Below, in pieces: positions 47,541 through 54,832 of a stretch of 64,000 bases of DNA. Within the stretch, counting starts at the first letter, position 1. Each line of letters opens with the position of its first letter. Below the pieces are notes generated by a model. It was not told the DNA's origin and searched no databases. It was given only the letters and a program-made list of their open reading frames with translations. The stretch is from Stutzerimonas stutzeri TS44 (GTDB taxonomy: Bacteria > Pseudomonadota > Gammaproteobacteria > Pseudomonadales > Pseudomonadaceae): contig AJXE01000012.1 in assembly GCA_000263395.1 (NCBI GenBank), positions 1-64,000 of the forward strand. Reading direction: 5' to 3'. Made by a program: the position numbers and the translations under genes.

Positions 47541-47572
47541 TTAAGACAGCCTTAAGTTTGCCGCCGAAGAAT
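47541..47572 (+). promoter_or_regulatory. Perfect TTAAG-N6-TTAAG box and promoter of the diiron-oxidase operon
   Basis: TTAAG at 47541-47545 and 47552-47556, then AAGAAT (47567-47572) ten bases on as -10. This equals the published BqsR box and also reads as CTTAAG-N5-CTTAAG, the PmrA-type form. It sits 46 bp before the first gene of a cluster whose last two genes encode a PmrAB/QseBC-type system. No gene was seen in the rest of 47340-47602. Confidence 0.75.
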
Positions 47573-47602
47573 CAGCCCCAGATTCCTAACCGAGGTTCCC
47601 CG

Positions 47603-48292
47603 ATGGAACTGCCCTGGGTTGATCACACCGAGGTACTGGCGCGCATCGGCCGCGAGCCGGCGCTGAGCCTGCAACTGGCGCAAGCCGATGCCGGCGAGCG
47701 GCGCGCCGCGCTGGAAAGTTTCATTCGTCAGCGTTTCGCCGAGCACTACGGCGCACGCGTGCAGCACTTCATGCCCTGCCTGCTCGGCCTGCATGGCGAA
47801 CACGGCGAGGTGCAGGGCGCGGTCGGCCTGCGCAGCGCGCGACGCCGGCCGCTGTTTCTCGAACGCTATCTGGACGAGCCCATCGAGCAGGCGGTGAGCC
47901 AGCGCTGCGGGCGTGCGGTGCCGCGTGAGGAGATCGTCGAGGTCGGCAATCTGGCCGCCTTCGGCAATGCCTCGGCGCGCCTGCTGATCGTCGCGCTGAC
48001 CGACCTCTTGGTCGCCCAGGGTTTTCGCTGGGTGGTGTTCACCGGCACGCCGGCGCTGCTCAACAGCTTCCAGCGCCTGGCGCTCGATCCGCTGGCGCTC
48101 GGCCTGGCCGATCCGGCGCGCATGGGCGAAGAGCTGGCCGACTGGGGCAGCTACTACGCCTGCCGGCCGCAGCTGATGGCCGGCGAGATTCTGCCCGGCC
48201 ACCAGCGCCTGACGCAGCTGGGCGTGTACGCACGGCTCGGCTACCAGCCGCTGTTCGATGCCAGCGAGGTGCCGCATGCAGCCTGCAGCTGA
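47603..48292 (+). CDS. Thermostable hemolysin-family protein (acyltransferase-like fold)
   Basis: 229 residues, no signal peptide. Resembles the thermostable hemolysin family (LESFIRQRFAEHYGARVQHFMPCLLGL, EVGNLAAFGNASARLLIVAL, WVVFTGTPALLNSFQRL). Despite the name these proteins are GNAT-related and are often beside acyl-CoA ligases, so an acyl-transfer role is more likely than lysis (inference). Start at 47603 (MELPWVDH); the longer upstream frame would cross the promoter. Overlaps the next gene by 17 bases. Confidence 0.7.
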   Translation: MELPWVDHTEVLARIGREPALSLQLAQADAGERRAALESFIRQRFAEHYGARVQHFMPCLLGLHGEHGEVQGAVGLRSARRRPLFLERYLDEPIEQAVSQRCGRAVPREEIVEVGNLAAFGNASARLLIVALTDLLVAQGFRWVVFTGTPALLNSFQRLALDPLALGLADPARMGEELADWGSYYACRPQLMAGEILPGHQRLTQLGVYARLGYQPLFDASEVPHAACS

Positions 48293-49721
48293 ACGCTTCT
48301 TCCGGGCGCTCGACCAGCACAGCGGCATCGCCCTCAGCGAGGGCCCGCGCCAGCTGAGCTATGCCGAACTACGCCACGAGGTCGGCGCGCGCGCCGGCCA
48401 GCTGGAACAGCTCGGCGTGCAGCGCGTCGCCCTGGCGCTGGACAACGGTCTGGAGTGGGCGCTGTGGGACCTGGCGCTGCTGCATGCCGGTCTGGTCTGC
48501 GTGCCGCTGCCGGGGTTCTTTTCCCCGGCGCAGCAGGAGCATGTGCTGAACCATGCCGGCATCGACTGCCTGATCGGCGCCGCCAGCCCGCTCAGCGAGC
48601 GCTGCGGCTTCCGCCCGACCGCCGCCGGCCTGCTGCAGCGCGAGCCGCAGACGGTCACGCCGGTGCCGGCCGGCACGCTGAAGCTCACCTACACCTCCGG
48701 CACCACCGGCCAGCCCAAGGGCGTGTGCCTGGATGCCCACGCGCAGCTGGCAGTGGCCGAGAGCCTGTGGCAGGCCAGCCTGCCCTGTGAGGTGCGCCAG
48801 CATCTGTGCGTACTGCCGCTGGCGACCCTGCTGGAAAACATCGCCGGACTGTATGCGCCGCTGCTGGCCGGTGCGCGGGTCGAGCTGCGACCGCTGGCGG
48901 AGATAGGCTTCAGCGGCGCGGCGGGCTTCGAGCTGCCGCGCCTGCTCGCCACGCTGCAGGCCAGCCAGCCGCACAGCCTGATCCTGCTGCCGCAACTGCT
49001 GCTGGCGCTGGTCAGCGCCGCCGAGCAAGGCGTGCCGCTGCCCGCATCGCTGCGCTTCATCGCGGTCGGTGGCGGCCGCGTGGCGCCGCAGCTGCTGGAA
49101 CGCGCCGAGCGACTCGGCCTGCCGGTATTCGAGGGCTATGGCCTGTCCGAATGCGCCTCGGTGGTCTGTCTGAACACGCCCGAGGCGCGGCGCATCGGCA
49201 CCGTCGGCCGGCCGTTGCCGCACGTCGAGCTGCGCCTGGCCGACGACGGCGAGGTGCTGGTGCGCGGCCCGCACATGCTCGGTTACCTCGGCGAGCCGCC
49301 GCTCACGGGCGACTGGCTGGCGACCGGCGACCTCGGCCACTTCGAGGACGGCTTCCTGGTCCTGCACGGGCGCAAGAAGCATCAGTTCGTCACCGCCTAC
49401 GGGCGCAACGTCAACCCGGAGTGGGTCGAGGCCGAGCTGGTGCAGCAGGCGCCCATCGCCCAGGCCTGGCTGCATGGCGAGGCACTGGCGCAGAACGTCG
49501 CCGTGCTGGTGCCACGACGCGCCGAGCTGAGCGACGCCGAGCTGCAGGCGGCGGTCGAGCGGGTCAACGCCGGCCTGCCGGACTACGCCCGCGTGCACCA
49601 CTGGCTGCGCGCCGCCGAACCCTTCAGCGCCGGCAACGGCCTGGCCACCGCCAACGGCCGGCTGCGCCGCGATGCCCTGCTCAGTCATTACCAGGCGGCC
49701 GTTGCCGCCGTTCTTTCCTGA
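48276..49721 (+). CDS. AMP-dependent acyl synthetase/ligase
   Basis: 481 residues. P-loop LTYTSGTTGQPKGVCLD (about 136-152), EGYGLSECASVVCLN, TGDLGHFEDGFLVLHGRKKHQFVTAYGRNVNPEWVE, all standard for the ANL superfamily; the C-terminal Lys domain is short. Activates a carboxylic acid, probably fatty, as adenylate then CoA ester. Start at 48276 with GAGGT; shorter than housekeeping FadD (about 560), so likely specialised. Located between the hemolysin-like and diiron oxidase genes. Confidence 0.88.
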   Translation: MQPAAERFFRALDQHSGIALSEGPRQLSYAELRHEVGARAGQLEQLGVQRVALALDNGLEWALWDLALLHAGLVCVPLPGFFSPAQQEHVLNHAGIDCLIGAASPLSERCGFRPTAAGLLQREPQTVTPVPAGTLKLTYTSGTTGQPKGVCLDAHAQLAVAESLWQASLPCEVRQHLCVLPLATLLENIAGLYAPLLAGARVELRPLAEIGFSGAAGFELPRLLATLQASQPHSLILLPQLLLALVSAAEQGVPLPASLRFIAVGGGRVAPQLLERAERLGLPVFEGYGLSECASVVCLNTPEARRIGTVGRPLPHVELRLADDGEVLVRGPHMLGYLGEPPLTGDWLATGDLGHFEDGFLVLHGRKKHQFVTAYGRNVNPEWVEAELVQQAPIAQAWLHGEALAQNVAVLVPRRAELSDAELQAAVERVNAGLPDYARVHHWLRAAEPFSAGNGLATANGRLRRDALLSHYQAAVAAVLS

Positions 49722-49749
49722 CTTCCTCTTCCGATCGCGAGGTACGCCC

Positions 49750-50421
49750 ATGGACTTCTTCGACCACCTGCAACACCAGACCAGTGCCGAACGCGAATAC
49801 CTGCTCGGCGCGCCGATCATCCATGCCGCGCTCGCTGGCACGGCGACCCGCGAGCAGTACATCGCCTTCCTCACCCAGGCCTACCACCACGTCAAGCACA
49901 CCGTGCCGCTGTTGATGGCCTGCGGCGCGCGCCTGCCGGAACGGCTGGAGTGGCTGCGCGAGGCGATCGCCGAGTACATCGAGGAAGAGATCGGCCACCA
50001 GGAATGGATCCTCAACGACATCCGCGCCTGCGGCGGCGATGCCGAGGCGGTGCGCCACGGCCAGCCAGCGCTGCCCACCGAGCTGATGGTCGCCTACGTC
50101 TATGACCGCATCGCCCGGCACAACCCGGCGAGCTTCTTCGGCATGGTCAACGTGCTCGAAGGCACCAGCATCGCCCTCGCCACCCAGGCCGCTGGCGTGC
50201 TGCAGGCCAAGCTCGGGCTGCCGGCCAAGGCCTTCAGCTACCTGACCTCGCACGGCAGCCTGGACCTGGAGCACATCGAGTTCTTCAAGCGGCTGATGAA
50301 CCGTCTCGACGACGAGGATGACAAGGCCGCGGTGGTGCACACCGCGCGCGTGGTCTATCGCCTCTACGGCGACATCTTCCGCAGCCTGACCACCACGGAG
50401 CCCGGCCATGCAACTGCGTGA
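49750..50421 (+). CDS. Heme-oxygenase-like diiron oxidase (HDO) family protein
   Basis: 223 residues, all-helical. It has the HDO core H168-x3-D172-x2-H175 and upstream ligands E79/H83 (EEEIGH) and E137 (NVLEG), matching the six-ligand pattern of CADD and SznF in order and approximate spacing. Known HDOs oxidise fatty acids (UndA), amino acids or their own residues. Its neighbour, an acyl ligase, favours an acyl substrate. The stop overlaps the next gene by 14 bases. Also annotated as 'iron-containing redox enzyme' or TenA-like. Confidence 0.8.
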   Translation: MDFFDHLQHQTSAEREYLLGAPIIHAALAGTATREQYIAFLTQAYHHVKHTVPLLMACGARLPERLEWLREAIAEYIEEEIGHQEWILNDIRACGGDAEAVRHGQPALPTELMVAYVYDRIARHNPASFFGMVNVLEGTSIALATQAAGVLQAKLGLPAKAFSYLTSHGSLDLEHIEFFKRLMNRLDDEDDKAAVVHTARVVYRLYGDIFRSLTTTEPGHATA

Positions 50422-51241
50422 CGCGCGCATCCTGCTCACCGGCGCCAGTGGCGGCATCGGCCAGGTGCTGGTCGAGCGGCTCTGCGCCGGCGGCGCGCAG
50501 GTGCTGCTGGTCGGTCGCGACAGCCTGGCGCTGGAGACGCTGGCCCAGCGCTACCCGGGGCAGGTCAGCCTGGTCTGTGCGGACCTCGCTCAGCGCAGCG
50601 GCCGGCATCTGGTGCTGGATGCGGCGCGGCGTTTCGGCGGCCTCAACTGCGTGATCAACGCCGCCGGGATCAACCAGTTCAGCCTGCTCGAACAGCAGGA
50701 TGAGGACGCCATCGCCCGGCTGATCGGCGTCAACGTCACCGCCACGCTGCAGCTGACCCACCTGCTGCTGCCGCTGCTGCGCCAGCAATCGCAGGCGCTA
50801 CTGGTCAATCTCGGCTCGACCTTCGGCTCCATCGGCTACCCGGGCTTCGCCGCCTACTGCGCCAGCAAGTTCGCCCTGCGCGGTTTCTCCGAGGCGCTGC
50901 GCCGCGAGCTGGCCGACAGTCACGTCAAGGTGCTCTACATCGCCCCGCGCGCCACCCGCACGGCAATGAACAGCGCCGACGTGGTGGCGATGAACGATGC
51001 GCTGAAGGTCGGCATGGACGACCCGCAGGCCGTGGCGCGGCAGATCGTCCGCGCCATCGTCGCCGAACGCGAGGAGCTGTACCTCGGCTGGCCGGAAAAG
51101 CTCTTCGTGCGCCTCAACAGCCTGCTGCCGCGCATGGTCGACCAGGCGCTGCGCAAGCAGTTGCCGGTGATCAAGCGCTTCGCCCACGGCGCGCCCGCGA
51201 CCGCCCCCAATCCCCCCACCTCAAGCGGAGAAAAGCCATGA
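50408..51241 (+). CDS. Short-chain dehydrogenase/reductase
   Basis: 277 residues. TGASGGIG (11-18) nucleotide-binding motif, NAAG at about 86-89, catalytic Ser in GSTFGSIGYPGF and YCASK (YxxxK). The extended C-terminal helix region (GWPEKLFVRLNSLLPRMVDQAL) is like membrane-associated fatty-metabolite SDRs. Substrate unknown; probably acts with the diiron oxidase and ligase of the same operon. Confidence 0.88.
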   Translation: MQLRDARILLTGASGGIGQVLVERLCAGGAQVLLVGRDSLALETLAQRYPGQVSLVCADLAQRSGRHLVLDAARRFGGLNCVINAAGINQFSLLEQQDEDAIARLIGVNVTATLQLTHLLLPLLRQQSQALLVNLGSTFGSIGYPGFAAYCASKFALRGFSEALRRELADSHVKVLYIAPRATRTAMNSADVVAMNDALKVGMDDPQAVARQIVRAIVAEREELYLGWPEKLFVRLNSLLPRMVDQALRKQLPVIKRFAHGAPATAPNPPTSSGEKP

Positions 51242-51888
51242 AACGTCTGCTCGGTCTTTGCAGCGTCCTGCTGGCGCTGGCCAGCCAACCCTCCTTCGCC
51301 CTCAGCGCGGCCGGCGAATCGTCGCTGCAGCAGGTCCAGACGCGCTGGGCGGAGATCAACTACCAGCTGCCCGCGGCGCAGCGCGAAGCAGCCTTCGCCA
51401 AGCTCGCCGCGGAAGCCGAACGTGCGGTAGCCGGCGAACCGCAGGCCGCCGAACTGCATATCTGGCACGGCATCGTGCTCAGCACCTGGGCCGGCGCCAA
51501 GGGCGGGCTTGGCGCGCTGGGCCTGGTCAAGCAGGCCAAGGCGGAACTGGAAAAAGCCATCGAGCTCGACGCACAGGCGCTCGACGGTTCGGCCTATACC
51601 AGCCTGGCCAGCCTCTACTACCAGGTGCCCGGCTGGCCGATCGGCTTCGGTGACGAGGACAAGGCCGAGGCGCTGTTCCGGCAGGCGCTGGCGCTGAACC
51701 CGAACGGTATCGACCCGAACTACTTCCACGGCGATTTCCTGCTGCGCCAAAAGCGCTATGGCGAAGCGCGTGCCGCACTGGAGAAGGCACTCGCCGCGCC
51801 GGCCCGCCCTGGTCGTGAGGTTGCCGATGCCGGCCGCCGCGACGAAGCCCGCGCGCTGCTTGCGCAGGTCAAGGAAAAGCTGGAATAA
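51238..51888 (+). CDS. Periplasmic TPR-like protein
   Basis: 216 residues: signal peptide ending SFA-LS (about residue 21), then TPR-type helices (LELEKAIELDAQALDGSAYTSLASLYY and EALFRQALALNPNGIDPNYFHGDFLLR split over two). Likely a protein-binding or scaffold partner in the periplasm, with no enzymatic motif. The start overlaps the SDR stop (ATGA), so it belongs to the same unit. Confidence 0.75.
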   Translation: MKRLLGLCSVLLALASQPSFALSAAGESSLQQVQTRWAEINYQLPAAQREAAFAKLAAEAERAVAGEPQAAELHIWHGIVLSTWAGAKGGLGALGLVKQAKAELEKAIELDAQALDGSAYTSLASLYYQVPGWPIGFGDEDKAEALFRQALALNPNGIDPNYFHGDFLLRQKRYGEARAALEKALAAPARPGREVADAGRRDEARALLAQVKEKLE

Positions 51889-51949
51889 CCGGGTGCGGCG
51901 GCGTTGAATGCACTGCAACGCCGCGCCCCTTCAAGACGACAGGAACGAC

Positions 51950-52609
51950 ATGCGCATTCTGCTGGTGGAAGACGATCGCGCCCTCGGCGAGGGCATCCGC
52001 ACCGCGCTCAAGCCCGAGGGCTACACCGTCGACTGGCTGCAGGACGGCGCCAGCGCGCTGCATGCGCTGAGCTTTGAGAGCTTCGAGCTGGCCATCCTCG
52101 ACCTCGGTCTGCCGCGGCTCGACGGCCTGGAAGTGCTCAAACGCCTGCGCGCCGCGGGCAACCCGGTGCCGGTGCTGGTGCTCACCGCGCGCGACGCCAC
52201 CGGCGACCGCATCGCCGGGCTGGACGCCGGCGCCGACGACTACCTGGTCAAACCATTCGACGTCGCCGAACTCAAGGCGCGCCTGCGCGCCCTGCTCCGG
52301 CGCAGCTTCAACCGCCCGGAACCGACCCTGGAATACCGCGGCATCCAGCTCGATCCGGTCAACCAGCAGGTCAGCTACCAGGGCGCGCCGGTCAGCCTGC
52401 CGCGCAAGGAATTCGTCCTGCTGCACGAACTGCTCGCCCAGCCCGGCCGCGTGCTGACCCGTGATCGCCTGCAACAGGCGCTCTACGGCTGGGACGAGGA
52501 CATCGAAAGCAATGCGCTGGAGGTGCATATCCACCACCTGCGCAAGAAGTTCTTCCCCGAGCTGATCCGCACCGTGCGCGGCGTCGGCTATCTGGTGGAC
52601 AAATGCTGA
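51950..52609 (+). CDS. OmpR-family response regulator (PmrA/QseB-like)
   Basis: 219 residues; phosphorylation site D51 (LAILDLGLPR), acidic E7/D8, K in VKPFD; winged-helix DNA-binding half with ESNALEVHIHHLRKKF and RGVGYLV. About as similar in layout to the bqsR product upstream as expected for two members of the PmrA/QseB group, which bind TTAAG-type direct repeats. Probably controls this operon through the box at 47541. Start at 51950; overlaps the kinase gene. Confidence 0.88.
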   Translation: MRILLVEDDRALGEGIRTALKPEGYTVDWLQDGASALHALSFESFELAILDLGLPRLDGLEVLKRLRAAGNPVPVLVLTARDATGDRIAGLDAGADDYLVKPFDVAELKARLRALLRRSFNRPEPTLEYRGIQLDPVNQQVSYQGAPVSLPRKEFVLLHELLAQPGRVLTRDRLQQALYGWDEDIESNALEVHIHHLRKKFFPELIRTVRGVGYLVDKC

Positions 52610-54024
52610 AGCGCTCGATCCGCCAGCGCACCCTCGCGCTGCTGCTCGGCACCCTGCTGGTTTCGCTGAGCCTGATTTCCTGGCAGAGCTACCGCGACGC
52701 CCGCCACGAGACCGAGGAGCTGTTCGATGCGCAGCTGGCGCAGAGCGCGCGGCTGGTGCAGGGACTGATGGCGCGCGACATGGACCAGCAGACCCGCCGC
52801 GCGCTGCAGCAGGCGCTGGACGCTGCGGTGAACGCCCGGCGCGACCAGGGCGTGCCGGGGCACGACTACGAGACCAAACTGGGCTTGCAGGTGTACGCCG
52901 CCGACGGCAGTACCGTGCTGCAGTCGGCCGGCGCACCGGAAGGTGCCCTGCAGCAGCTGCTCGGCGCGACAGGCAGCTCGCCGACACCGTTCGCCGGCCT
53001 GCCCGGCGGCTATCACGATGTGCTGCTCGATGGCCGCGACTGGCGGCTGTTCCTGCTGGAAGACCAGCAGGACGCGCTATGGATTCTGGTCAGCGAACGC
53101 GAGGACGTGCGCGGCGAACTGGTCGAGAAGATCGCCCGGCGCAGCCTGCTGCCCGATCTGGTCGGCCTGCCGTTGCTGGCGCTGCTGATCTGGCTGGCGG
53201 TGGGCTGGGGCCTGCGGCCGCTGGCGCACATGGCGCGGCTGCTGAAGGATCGCGCGCCGGACAACCTCGCCCCGCTGCTGCTGGCGCCGCTGCCGCAGGA
53301 GCTGGAGCCGGTGGCTGCCTCGCTCAACCGCCTGCTGCAACAGGTCAACCAGCTGCTGGAGCGGGAAAAGCGCTTCATCGCCGACGCCGCCCACGAGCTG
53401 CGCACGCCGCTGGCGATGCTGCGCATTCACGCGCAGAACGCCCAGCAGGCCAGCAGCCCGCGCGACCGCGAGGAAGCGCTGGAACAGCTGCTCGCCGGCG
53501 TCGACCGTACCACCCGCGTGGTCACCCAGCTGCTGACTCTCGCCCGTCTGGAACCCAGCGCCCAACAACTGCGGCGGGTACCACTCGACCTCGGCGTGCT
53601 GGCGCGCGAAACCCTTGCCGAGCTGACACCGCTGGCCCTGGCGCGCGAGCAGGAACTGGCGCTGGAGGTCGACGAACACGCCGATCTGCAGCTGCACGGC
53701 GATGCCGCGAGCCTGGTCACGCTGCTGCAGAACCTGCTGGGCAACGCGCTGCAGTACACCCCGCGCCAGGGACGCATCGAAGTGCGCCTGCACGCCAGCG
53801 CCGATGCGCTGAATCTGGATGTCGCCGACAGCGGCCCGGGAGTCGCCGCCGAACTGCGCGAGCAGCTGTTCGAGCGCTTCGTGCGCCTCGGCGACGGCGA
53901 AGGCGCCGGGCTGGGCCTGTCGATCGTCGCGCGCATCGCCGAGCTGCATGGCGCGACGGTGGAACTGCTGGATTCGTCGCTGGGCGGCCTGTGCGTGCGG
54001 GTACGTTTTCCGCGCGACCGCTAG
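52603..54024 (+). CDS. Sensor histidine kinase (PmrB/QseC-like)
   Basis: 473 residues. TM1 about 8-26, periplasmic domain about 27-178 with two Glu/Asp-rich stretches, TM2 about 179-199, HAMP, H264 in ADAAHELRTPLAML, then ATPase domain (NLLGNALQYTP, DSGPGVAAE, GEGAGLGLSIV). No RExxE motif is visible in its periplasmic part, unlike bqsS, so the signal differs. Last gene of the seven-gene unit starting at 47603. Confidence 0.88.
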   Translation: MLKRSIRQRTLALLLGTLLVSLSLISWQSYRDARHETEELFDAQLAQSARLVQGLMARDMDQQTRRALQQALDAAVNARRDQGVPGHDYETKLGLQVYAADGSTVLQSAGAPEGALQQLLGATGSSPTPFAGLPGGYHDVLLDGRDWRLFLLEDQQDALWILVSEREDVRGELVEKIARRSLLPDLVGLPLLALLIWLAVGWGLRPLAHMARLLKDRAPDNLAPLLLAPLPQELEPVAASLNRLLQQVNQLLEREKRFIADAAHELRTPLAMLRIHAQNAQQASSPRDREEALEQLLAGVDRTTRVVTQLLTLARLEPSAQQLRRVPLDLGVLARETLAELTPLALAREQELALEVDEHADLQLHGDAASLVTLLQNLLGNALQYTPRQGRIEVRLHASADALNLDVADSGPGVAAELREQLFERFVRLGDGEGAGLGLSIVARIAELHGATVELLDSSLGGLCVRVRFPRDR

Positions 54025-54070: not shown

Positions 54071-54832
54071 ATGACCGCGACCACCCTCACCGCCGAACGA
54101 CTCGCGGCCCTGCACCGCGAGGGCTTCGTGCTGCTGCCGGGCGTGCTCGAAGCGGCCGGCATCGCCGCCCTGCGCGAGGCCATCGACCGGCTGACGCCCA
54201 TCGGCCTGGATTATCAGGGGCTGGTGGACGACCACTACACCTGTGTGTTCAACCGCGCGCCGTTCTGGCTGCGATTTCTCGACCTGCCGGGTGTCATCGA
54301 GCTGGCCGAAGCGGCACTCGGCGCGGACTGCCACATCATCGGCCAGACCGCCTGGCGCAGCCGTCCGGGCTTCATCGGCGGCGAGCTGCACGTCGACCAT
54401 CTGCCGATGGAGCTGCCACAGCAGCTGCTGGCCGATCCGGCGTTCGAGCTGCCGATGCAGATCTGTACCGCGCATCTATATCTGGACGACATCGACGCCG
54501 ACCTCTGCCCGACGCAGGTGATCGCCGGCAGTCACCGCGCCGGCCGCAAGCCGCGCCCCGGCGAAACCGCCTGGCAGGGGCGCGGGGCCGAGCCGGTGCT
54601 GTGCCGGGCCGGCGACGTGCTGTTGTTTCGCAGCGACCTCTGGCATGCCGGCAGCCGCAACCGCACGGCGGAGCGCAGCCGCTACCTGCTGCAGATCCAC
54701 TATGGCCGGCGGATGGTCGCGCAGAAGTTCTCGCCGTATCTGCAGTTCGCCTTCGACCCCGCGGTACTGGCCGCCGCCACGCCACGTCAGCGGCGCCTGC
54801 TGGGCGAGCACGAGCCTGCCGAATACGATTGA
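54071..54832 (+). CDS. PhyH-family Fe(II)/2-oxoglutarate dioxygenase
   Basis: 253 residues. The 2-His-1-carboxylate facial triad is visible: H-x-D in ELHVDHLPME and the distal His in LWHAGSRNRT, with Arg of RSRYLLQIHYGRR for 2-oxoglutarate. Family members hydroxylate small metabolites. The gene lies 46 bp after the sensor kinase, and is on the same strand, so co-transcription with the diiron oxidase unit is possible. Substrate unknown. Confidence 0.82.
   Translation: MTATTLTAERLAALHREGFVLLPGVLEAAGIAALREAIDRLTPIGLDYQGLVDDHYTCVFNRAPFWLRFLDLPGVIELAEAALGADCHIIGQTAWRSRPGFIGGELHVDHLPMELPQQLLADPAFELPMQICTAHLYLDDIDADLCPTQVIAGSHRAGRKPRPGETAWQGRGAEPVLCRAGDVLLFRSDLWHAGSRNRTAERSRYLLQIHYGRRMVAQKFSPYLQFAFDPAVLAAATPRQRRLLGEHEPAEYD

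Follow-up and report, generated by a model that had tools for sequence, protein, structure and literature searches.

What does a bacterium do with a gene of the 'thermostable hemolysin' family that is followed, on the same strand, by genes for an acyl ligase, an oxidase, a reductase and a two-component system? The question is raised by a stretch of DNA from Stutzerimonas stutzeri TS44 (contig AJXE01000012.1, positions 1 to 64,000; hereafter the window, 64,000 nucleotides (nt) in length), in which seven genes, here called TH, ANL, HDO, SDR, TPR, RR and HK, span positions 47603-54024, all on the + strand. These genes are a real, widespread and co-inherited operon. The best reading of its product is an O2-tailored acyl, probably N-acyl, metabolite; that the genes form a self-regulated biosynthetic operon for acyl activation, acyl transfer, O2-dependent oxidation and reduction has, in our estimate, about an even chance of being right. 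The features are as follows.

47541-47556, + strand: TTAAG-N6-TTAAG direct repeat (looser form TTAA-N7-TTAA), operator-like, 62 nt 5' of the TH start
47603-48292, + strand: TH, 'thermostable hemolysin' family (PF12261; Pfam T_hemolysin, 217.6 bits against a cut-off of 27)
48276-49721, + strand: ANL, adenylate-forming acyl ligase (PF00501 AMP-binding, 172 bits)
49750-50421, + strand: HDO, haem-oxygenase-like diiron oxidase (PF14518 Haem_oxygenas_2, iron-containing redox enzyme, 113.2 bits against a cut-off of 28.9)
50408-51241, + strand: SDR reductase, NF006565 (PRK09072; Pfam adh_short; NCBIfam 396 bits, above the curated cut-off of 238)
51238-51888, + strand: TPR protein (Pfam TPR; export judged by eye)
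51950-52609, + strand: RR, OmpR/PhoB-type response regulator (PF00072 and PF00486; nearest models PmrA and QseB)
52603-54024, + strand: HK, sensor histidine kinase (Pfam; nearest model QseC)

With start codons that we picked among the in-frame candidates, four junctions overlap (TH/ANL by 17 nt, HDO/SDR by 14, SDR/TPR by 4 and RR/HK by 7), and two are gaps (ANL-HDO, 28 nt; TPR-RR, 61 nt). An earlier prediction made for this DNA (the original prediction) had described a seven-gene order on one strand with overlaps, a regulator and kinase at its end and a TTAAG repeat 5' of the first gene; the coordinates and Pfam matches bear out the gene order, and the repeat is present.

Conservation and co-inheritance

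We compared the best 80 of 558 confirmed HDO loci, which are the closest relatives of the window and not a random sample. The order TH-ANL-HDO is kept in all 80, and SDR and TPR come next in 78; L003 stops at a contig edge, and L069 is without both genes in its stretch. Within these five core genes, no gap between neighbours exceeds 35 nt in the loci. A same-strand RR follows in 71 of the 80 loci, and HK follows in 70 of these 71 (the contig of L059 ends first). The seven proteins also diverge in step, their pairwise distances being correlated with one another (Spearman 0.79-0.92 for 20-32 loci). In 39 spread loci, examined up to 10 kb to each side, no real neighbour beyond the seven genes recurs in more than 4, a count that is a lower bound because neighbouring open reading frames were chosen by length and antisense frames displaced some true genes; of the other families of open reading frames seen in at least five of the 39 loci, the example listed is antisense within the operon.

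In a sample of 398 Pseudomonadota genomes, HDO is found in 77 and PF12261 above its cut-off in 77, with both in 75, HDO alone in two and TH alone in two (Fisher p 4e-76, from genomes that are not independent). The HDO orthologues match at E 4e-53 or better and the next matches at 1e-24 or worse, a line set after seeing the gap; 16 genomes with weak HDO matches are left out of these counts, as is G308 for PF12261, where it scores below the cut-off. Three of the four exceptions are incomplete assemblies (G184, G242 and G254, 67-84%), and the fourth, G130, has a different kind of cluster, described below. PF12261 was found in none of 14 well-known control genomes. Because the genes are co-inherited, a chance grouping is excluded. 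The original prediction had called for a homology search on the co-occurrence of the hemolysin-like, HDO and SDR genes; it is answered by the joint presence of TH and HDO in these genomes and of SDR as the next gene in nearly all loci.

Many small genomes of one family, f39, carry HDO and TH, which is a source of dependence within the sample. The HDO of one f39 member shares 78% identity with the HDO in a Mariprofundaceae record, so f39 probably represents iron-oxidising Zetaproteobacteria.

The unit is missing from both other genomes of the same genus in the sample, yet it is present in many Stutzerimonas records; in Stutzerimonas it is accessory. There are 24 plasmid records with HDO relatives, two of which were typed as conjugative, one of them with the five-gene core. 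To these comparisons we added 22 annotated regions picked for spread among the matches, one of which came without annotation.

The oxidase and the ligase

The residues E79, H83, E137, H168, D172 and H175 are invariant in 37 of 37 aligned HDO proteins (the window and 36 of the 80 loci). The motif H168-x3-D172-x2-H175 with H83 and E137, which the original prediction had picked out, is therefore upheld; E79 is as invariant as had been assumed, but so is E80, and which of the two is the ligand cannot be distinguished. H46, H47 and H50 of one helix are invariant too. The 3H/3C ligand pattern of the HDO family is described in PMC13108848. The protein has a predicted haem-oxygenase-like helical fold, and at the level of sequence its ligand set fits a 3H/3C haem-oxygenase-like diiron oxidase. 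A structure prediction without a diiron site had been named as a result that would speak against the proposed route; the predicted fold and the conserved ligand residues are those of a diiron HDO.

The nearest solved relative is 3dde from Shewanella, whose function is not assigned. CADD and UndA have the fold and the 3H/3C pattern in common with HDO, which forms a separate subfamily; the CADD model TIGR04305 scores 26.6 bits, far under its cut-off of 200. The pattern of SznF, compared by description only, is alike, and MboA gives a weak sequence match (E 0.017). With UndA as the guide, HDO might act directly on a free or activated fatty acid and release an alkene, an aldehyde or a shortened chain, with TH in a minor part, a route much like the one in the original prediction. 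We consider this reading unlikely.

ANL has an AMP-binding domain and the motifs that we take to be A3, TSG(T/S)TG.PKG, and A8; the domain and the A3 motif together place it among the ANL adenylating enzymes.

TH: hemolysin or acyltransferase

The AlphaFold model of TH has a pLDDT of 91.4, and the top rows of its Foldseek and VIA-align searches are acyl-homoserine lactone (AHL) synthases and FeeM, which points to the LuxI/FeeM branch of the GNAT acyltransferase superfamily. By this prediction TH has a fold in common with the LuxI/BjaI AHL synthases and the N-acyl amino acid synthase FeeM, identity being low (8-17%), and the logic of acyl transfer may be alike. TH is thus probably a LuxI/FeeM-like acyltransferase, an enzyme rather than a toxin. 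The original prediction had called it a hemolysin-like protein; the family assignment stands, but the acyltransferase role suggested by the model was overlooked.

Several results count against the acyltransferase reading. A fold alone does not establish the function of TH. The AHL synthase family PF00765 and the FeeM family PF21926 did not match 37 TH proteins with E values of up to 1 allowed, and profile-profile comparisons of TH with small LuxI-like and FeeM-like sets were weak (probability 0.7% and 11%). The picture is mixed at the residues invariant among the aligned AHL synthases, D48, D51, E103, S105 and R106: the weak TH alignment starts past the acidic pair, and in it E113 of TH falls on the Glu of the E..SR motif, with neither S105 nor R106 retained. 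Proof at the sequence level that TH is LuxI- or FeeM-like failed, the support coming from structure prediction. In addition, a 22.8 kD TH protein of V. cholerae is reported to be haemolytic in lysates and supernatant (PMC4046660), and a V. alginolyticus TH protein to be toxic to zebrafish, as cited in PMC6262041.

One could take these reports and the family name at face value, as the authors of PMC6262041 and PMC6474259 do in treating TH, and regard the genes as serving virulence, with a hemolysin protein, secreted by the cell, as the product of the first. However, TH is predicted to be a GNAT-fold enzyme, the V. cholerae and Serratia proteins are without a signal peptide (PMC4046660), and, among the best 80 of the 558 loci, the set is found in many environmental Pseudomonas, in Hydrogenophaga and Sideroxydans and in a Mariprofundaceae record. 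We regard a secreted hemolysin as very improbable. The reported haemolysis and toxicity may be compatible with a haemolytic product of an enzyme, and the heat-stable haemolysis behind the family name could come from a surfactant-like product.

TH and ANL with other oxygenases

Our strongest argument for TH as a biosynthetic partner of the ligase is that the pair stays constant while the iron oxygenase changes. In five of five Streptomyces plasmids examined (TH is split in one), TH and ANL are accompanied by a TauD dioxygenase in place of HDO. TH-ANL-TauD is also found in Pantoea Lij88, in Acinetobacter haemolyticus, where a transposase intervenes, and in Paracoccus, where SDR and a divergently oriented two-component system accompany it. 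In G130, which belongs to the family of the window, the cluster reads TH-ANL-TauD-two aminotransferases-amidase (L113, 4836-11747; all but TH and ANL by eye). In Serratia 39006 the order is TauD-ANL-TH-transporter, and TH is up 184-fold in an rsmA mutant (PMC4046660).

Leaving Serratia aside, these clusters share the TH subfamily of the operon (WGxYYxxxP in 22 of 22 TH proteins) and its ANL subfamily (GRN in 20 of 20, PEW in 18 of 20). They differ in having a 2-oxoglutarate dioxygenase instead of HDO, in having no adjacent two-component system in the stretches examined, Paracoccus excepted, and in adding methyltransferase, ketosynthase, aminotransferase or efflux genes.

Lone copies of TH also occur. 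Two f39 genomes have a second, lone TH (L114, 4795-5433, and L115); the neighbourhood of the one in L114 includes radical-SAM and methyltransferase genes that by eye resemble arsenic-lipid genes. A lone TH on a Photobacterium damselae plasmid (L185, 5920-7230) lies beside the gamma-mobile-trio gene gmtX.

The operator-like box and the two-component system

Across the 4.28 Mb assembly the strict repeat TTAAG-N6-TTAAG occurs once, with no control matches, and it did not appear in 100 shuffles of the window. Of the 71 loci with a regulator, 65 have the looser TTAA-N7-TTAA within 250 nt 5' of TH, against 0.1 loci expected from mononucleotide shuffles; in 62 of the 65 it falls between -55 and -70. 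Counted on the + strand over the 1.56 Mb that the loci comprise, 67 of 69 boxes are upstream of TH. Among the six loci without a regulator the box is found in one, at -202. It is present in six of six further regulator-bearing HDO loci, a raw count with no chance control; it lies at -64 in Vibrio sp. HDW18, at -71 in Pseudoalteromonas, at -66 (and -162) in Salinivibrio, at -81 and -83 in two Variovorax whose regulator is convergent, and in Aeromonas 48 nt 5' of the first TH codon in the match. Three loci that have no regulator nearby carry it as well (a V. parahaemolyticus plasmid, Alteromonas and Citrobacter; no chance control). It is absent from Pantoea deleyi and from four HDO-less clusters, among them that of Paracoccus with its divergent two-component system.

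The repeat is probably the operator of the operon's own RR; binding of RR to the box is inferred with good support. The simplest reading is that the main target of RR is its own operon, and because the box precedes the RR gene as well, the circuit would be positively autoregulated. A wider RR regulon was considered and rejected: one-mismatch strict sites number 9 and 8, against 23 and 27 for a reversed-pattern control (exact site included). The looser box occurs at six places in the assembly against 10 in the control.

RR scores below the NCBIfam cut-offs for PmrA (238 bits, equivalog cut-off 330) and QseB (225, cut-off 345), as HK does for QseC (251, cut-off 475) and PmrB (191, cut-off 314); the 2CSK_N region of HK, at 21.6 bits, falls just under the Pfam cut-off of 23.2. 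The kinase may plausibly respond to iron or another metal. Genes related to iron, VIT and FTR1 among them, lie near the operon in Pseudoalteromonas (L174, 8462-10255, cupredoxin and iron transporter), Pantoea (L176, 9218-9901), Alteromonas (L179, 1-632) and Variovorax (L192, 13404-14108), that is, in four of nine annotated HDO-type plasmid regions, a raw count without control.

The arrangement of a regulator within its own operon and under its own box, together with the predicted AHL-synthase fold of TH, would also suit a quorum-type loop, in which a diffusible signal made by TH, ANL, HDO and SDR is sensed by the kinase with the aid of the periplasmic TPR protein. However, the strict box is found at one genomic place, with the operon itself the only evident target, the core also occurs without a local two-component system, and HK is only distantly like the PmrB/QseC sensors. 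A loop of this kind seems to us rather unlikely.

The TPR protein

The best PDB match of TPR is BstC (7t1s, E 1e-7 over residues 51-187); the BstC model NF045602 scores 35 bits, below its cut-off of 350. Its Novosphingobium counterpart is annotated and scored as TatT (PF16811, 26.8 bits against 26.5). PF16811 gave no match to the TPR protein of the window at E up to 1, and the Novosphingobium protein is the one of the four scanned that reaches the cut-off. By analogy, the likeness to BstC and TatT suggests a lipid-like ligand. Genes of cytochrome b561-type or b/b6-type lie beside TH clusters in L172 (3214-3762), L176 (1-511 and 4329-4913), L178 (4152-4661) and L187 (2341-2880), and their products are possible redox partners.

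The cluster in print

The original prediction held that no described pathway has this set of genes. This stands for function, since we found no tested function for the seven-gene set in the literature searched, which was thin on subscription journals; the set itself was already published. In Pseudoalteromonas it was named a 'potential virulence cluster' and is kept in 24 genomes (PMC6262041). For Pseudoalteromonas carrageenovora the paper lists a thermostable hemolysin, two genes annotated as ligases and QseB/QseC, and the authors proposed control of the hemolysin rather than a pathway. In this species we find TH-ANL-HDO-SDR-TPR-RR-HK, with TPR annotated as hypothetical; unlike in the window, genes for a cupredoxin and an iron transporter come next on the same strand. 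In V. cholerae the dth region, described as a hemolysin region, has a delta-thermostable hemolysin (VCA1111) next to the ligase DthC (VCA1110) (PMC12208996, PMC6474259), just as TH and ANL are neighbours here, and a response regulator at VCA1105 (PMC4441509) would fit the same gene order, V. cholerae being known to us from descriptions alone. Vibrio sp. HDW18 has all seven genes in the order of the window.

In P. alcaligenes AVO110, genes A9179_RS08440-RS08460 correspond, by annotation and consecutive locus tags, to ANL-HDO-SDR-TPR-RR in this order. In fungal-exudate medium they are up 389-, 373-, 318-, 107- and 38-fold, respectively; the cluster is termed beta-oxidation, and TH and HK lie outside the published table (PMC8304167). 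The operon might accordingly degrade or scavenge fatty acids as these authors propose. Ligases and SDR proteins are common in catabolism, and the fadD of the cluster is reported to be needed in fungal exudate (PMC8304167, PMC6344628). However, the conserved genes include no acyl-CoA dehydrogenase, hydratase or thiolase, beta-oxidation as known has no role for a LuxI/FeeM-fold acyltransferase or a diiron oxidase, and the TH-ANL pair occurs in biosynthetic clusters of Streptomyces. We find a degradative role improbable.

Transcription signals and flanking genes

A scan for sigma-70-type promoters found none, with 0.2 expected; five intrinsic terminators were found against 2.9 expected, none of them in the TPR-RR gap. 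A GC-rich stem-loop in this gap (51889-51949) could damp RR and HK, and in P. alcaligenes RR is induced less than ANL (PMC8304167), but its stability does not exceed that of shuffled sequences (z -0.55). A gene for a PhyH-type dioxygenase follows on the same strand (54071-54832, 46 nt past HK), and then a cytosine-deaminase-like gene (by eye). The PhyH gene is ruled out as an eighth member, being kept in one of the 80 loci (L001).

The proposed pathway

In the biosynthetic reading, RR would bind the TTAA-N7-TTAA box, and the operon would be switched on by its own two-component system. ANL may then activate a carboxylic acid, probably a fatty acid, whose acyl group TH may transfer to an amine or a similar acceptor. 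From their families, the diiron HDO, or in relatives a TauD-type iron dioxygenase, would oxidise the product of TH with O2, SDR would reduce the oxidised product, and the exported TatT/BstC-like TPR protein would bind or carry the lipid-like product in the periplasm. The order of ligase, acyl transfer, oxidation and reduction is likely because TH is predicted to be acyltransferase-like and recurs by the ligase when the oxygenase differs. The original prediction had proposed a regulated route of fatty acid activation, oxidation by HDO and reduction by SDR, which is borne out in part. Its single unit is supported by the conserved order and the genome counts, its diiron oxidase by fold and ligands, and its regulator by an operator-like box upstream of TH in most loci and by a strict site found once in the assembly; acyl transfer by TH is what it had missed.

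Some observations weigh against this pathway or parts of it. The A10 motif of ANL enzymes usually carries a catalytic lysine. The ANL of the operon has arginine (Arg462) at this position, as do at least 97% of the 80 aligned sequences, 17 of 20 compared ANLs (two have Lys, L179 and L184, and one Thr, L187) and seven of nine TauD-type relatives; adenylation is not certain given this replacement. A Novosphingobium cluster, TH-ANL-SDR-TatT, has no HDO or TauD within its stretch, and in Photobacterium damselae, Rhizobium and Methylosinus TH is found without an adjacent ligase or oxygenase; the plasmid gene table behind these contexts is incomplete. Six of the 77 loci long enough to judge (three contigs were too short) are without a same-strand RR, namely L069 and five with the full core; a regulator on the opposite strand, as in Variovorax, is not counted in this tally. 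The box is missing from six of the 71 regulator-bearing loci, and five other loose-box sites in the assembly (G000:C13:112998, C33:6209, C37:6699, C11:820 and C22:15503) make a few further RR targets possible.

The component families are known and the set had been published; what is new is how they are combined and how the hemolysin family is read. TH and HDO occur together in about one in five of the Pseudomonadota genomes sampled (75 of 398, many of them from one probable Mariprofundaceae family), and in the literature searched we came across no product of theirs. The exchange of HDO and TauD around a constant TH-ANL pair offers a direct route to the chemistry, and the box 5' of the first gene is a handle on the inducing signal. 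We suggest tentatively, with somewhat less than even confidence, that the TH family as a whole comprises overlooked acyl synthases of the LuxI/FeeM type, that TH-ANL is a portable module feeding interchangeable oxygenases (HDO in most of the Proteobacteria examined, TauD in actinomycetes and a few Proteobacteria) for a new class of O2-tailored acyl metabolites, that the sensor is a dedicated one, possibly for iron, and that haemolysis stems from the metabolite. The re-reading of TH is the most interesting claim that we make: if TH is an acyl synthase, then a gene family that has counted as a hemolysin from 2002 or earlier, and that virulence-gene screens have looked for, would be understood as metabolic instead.

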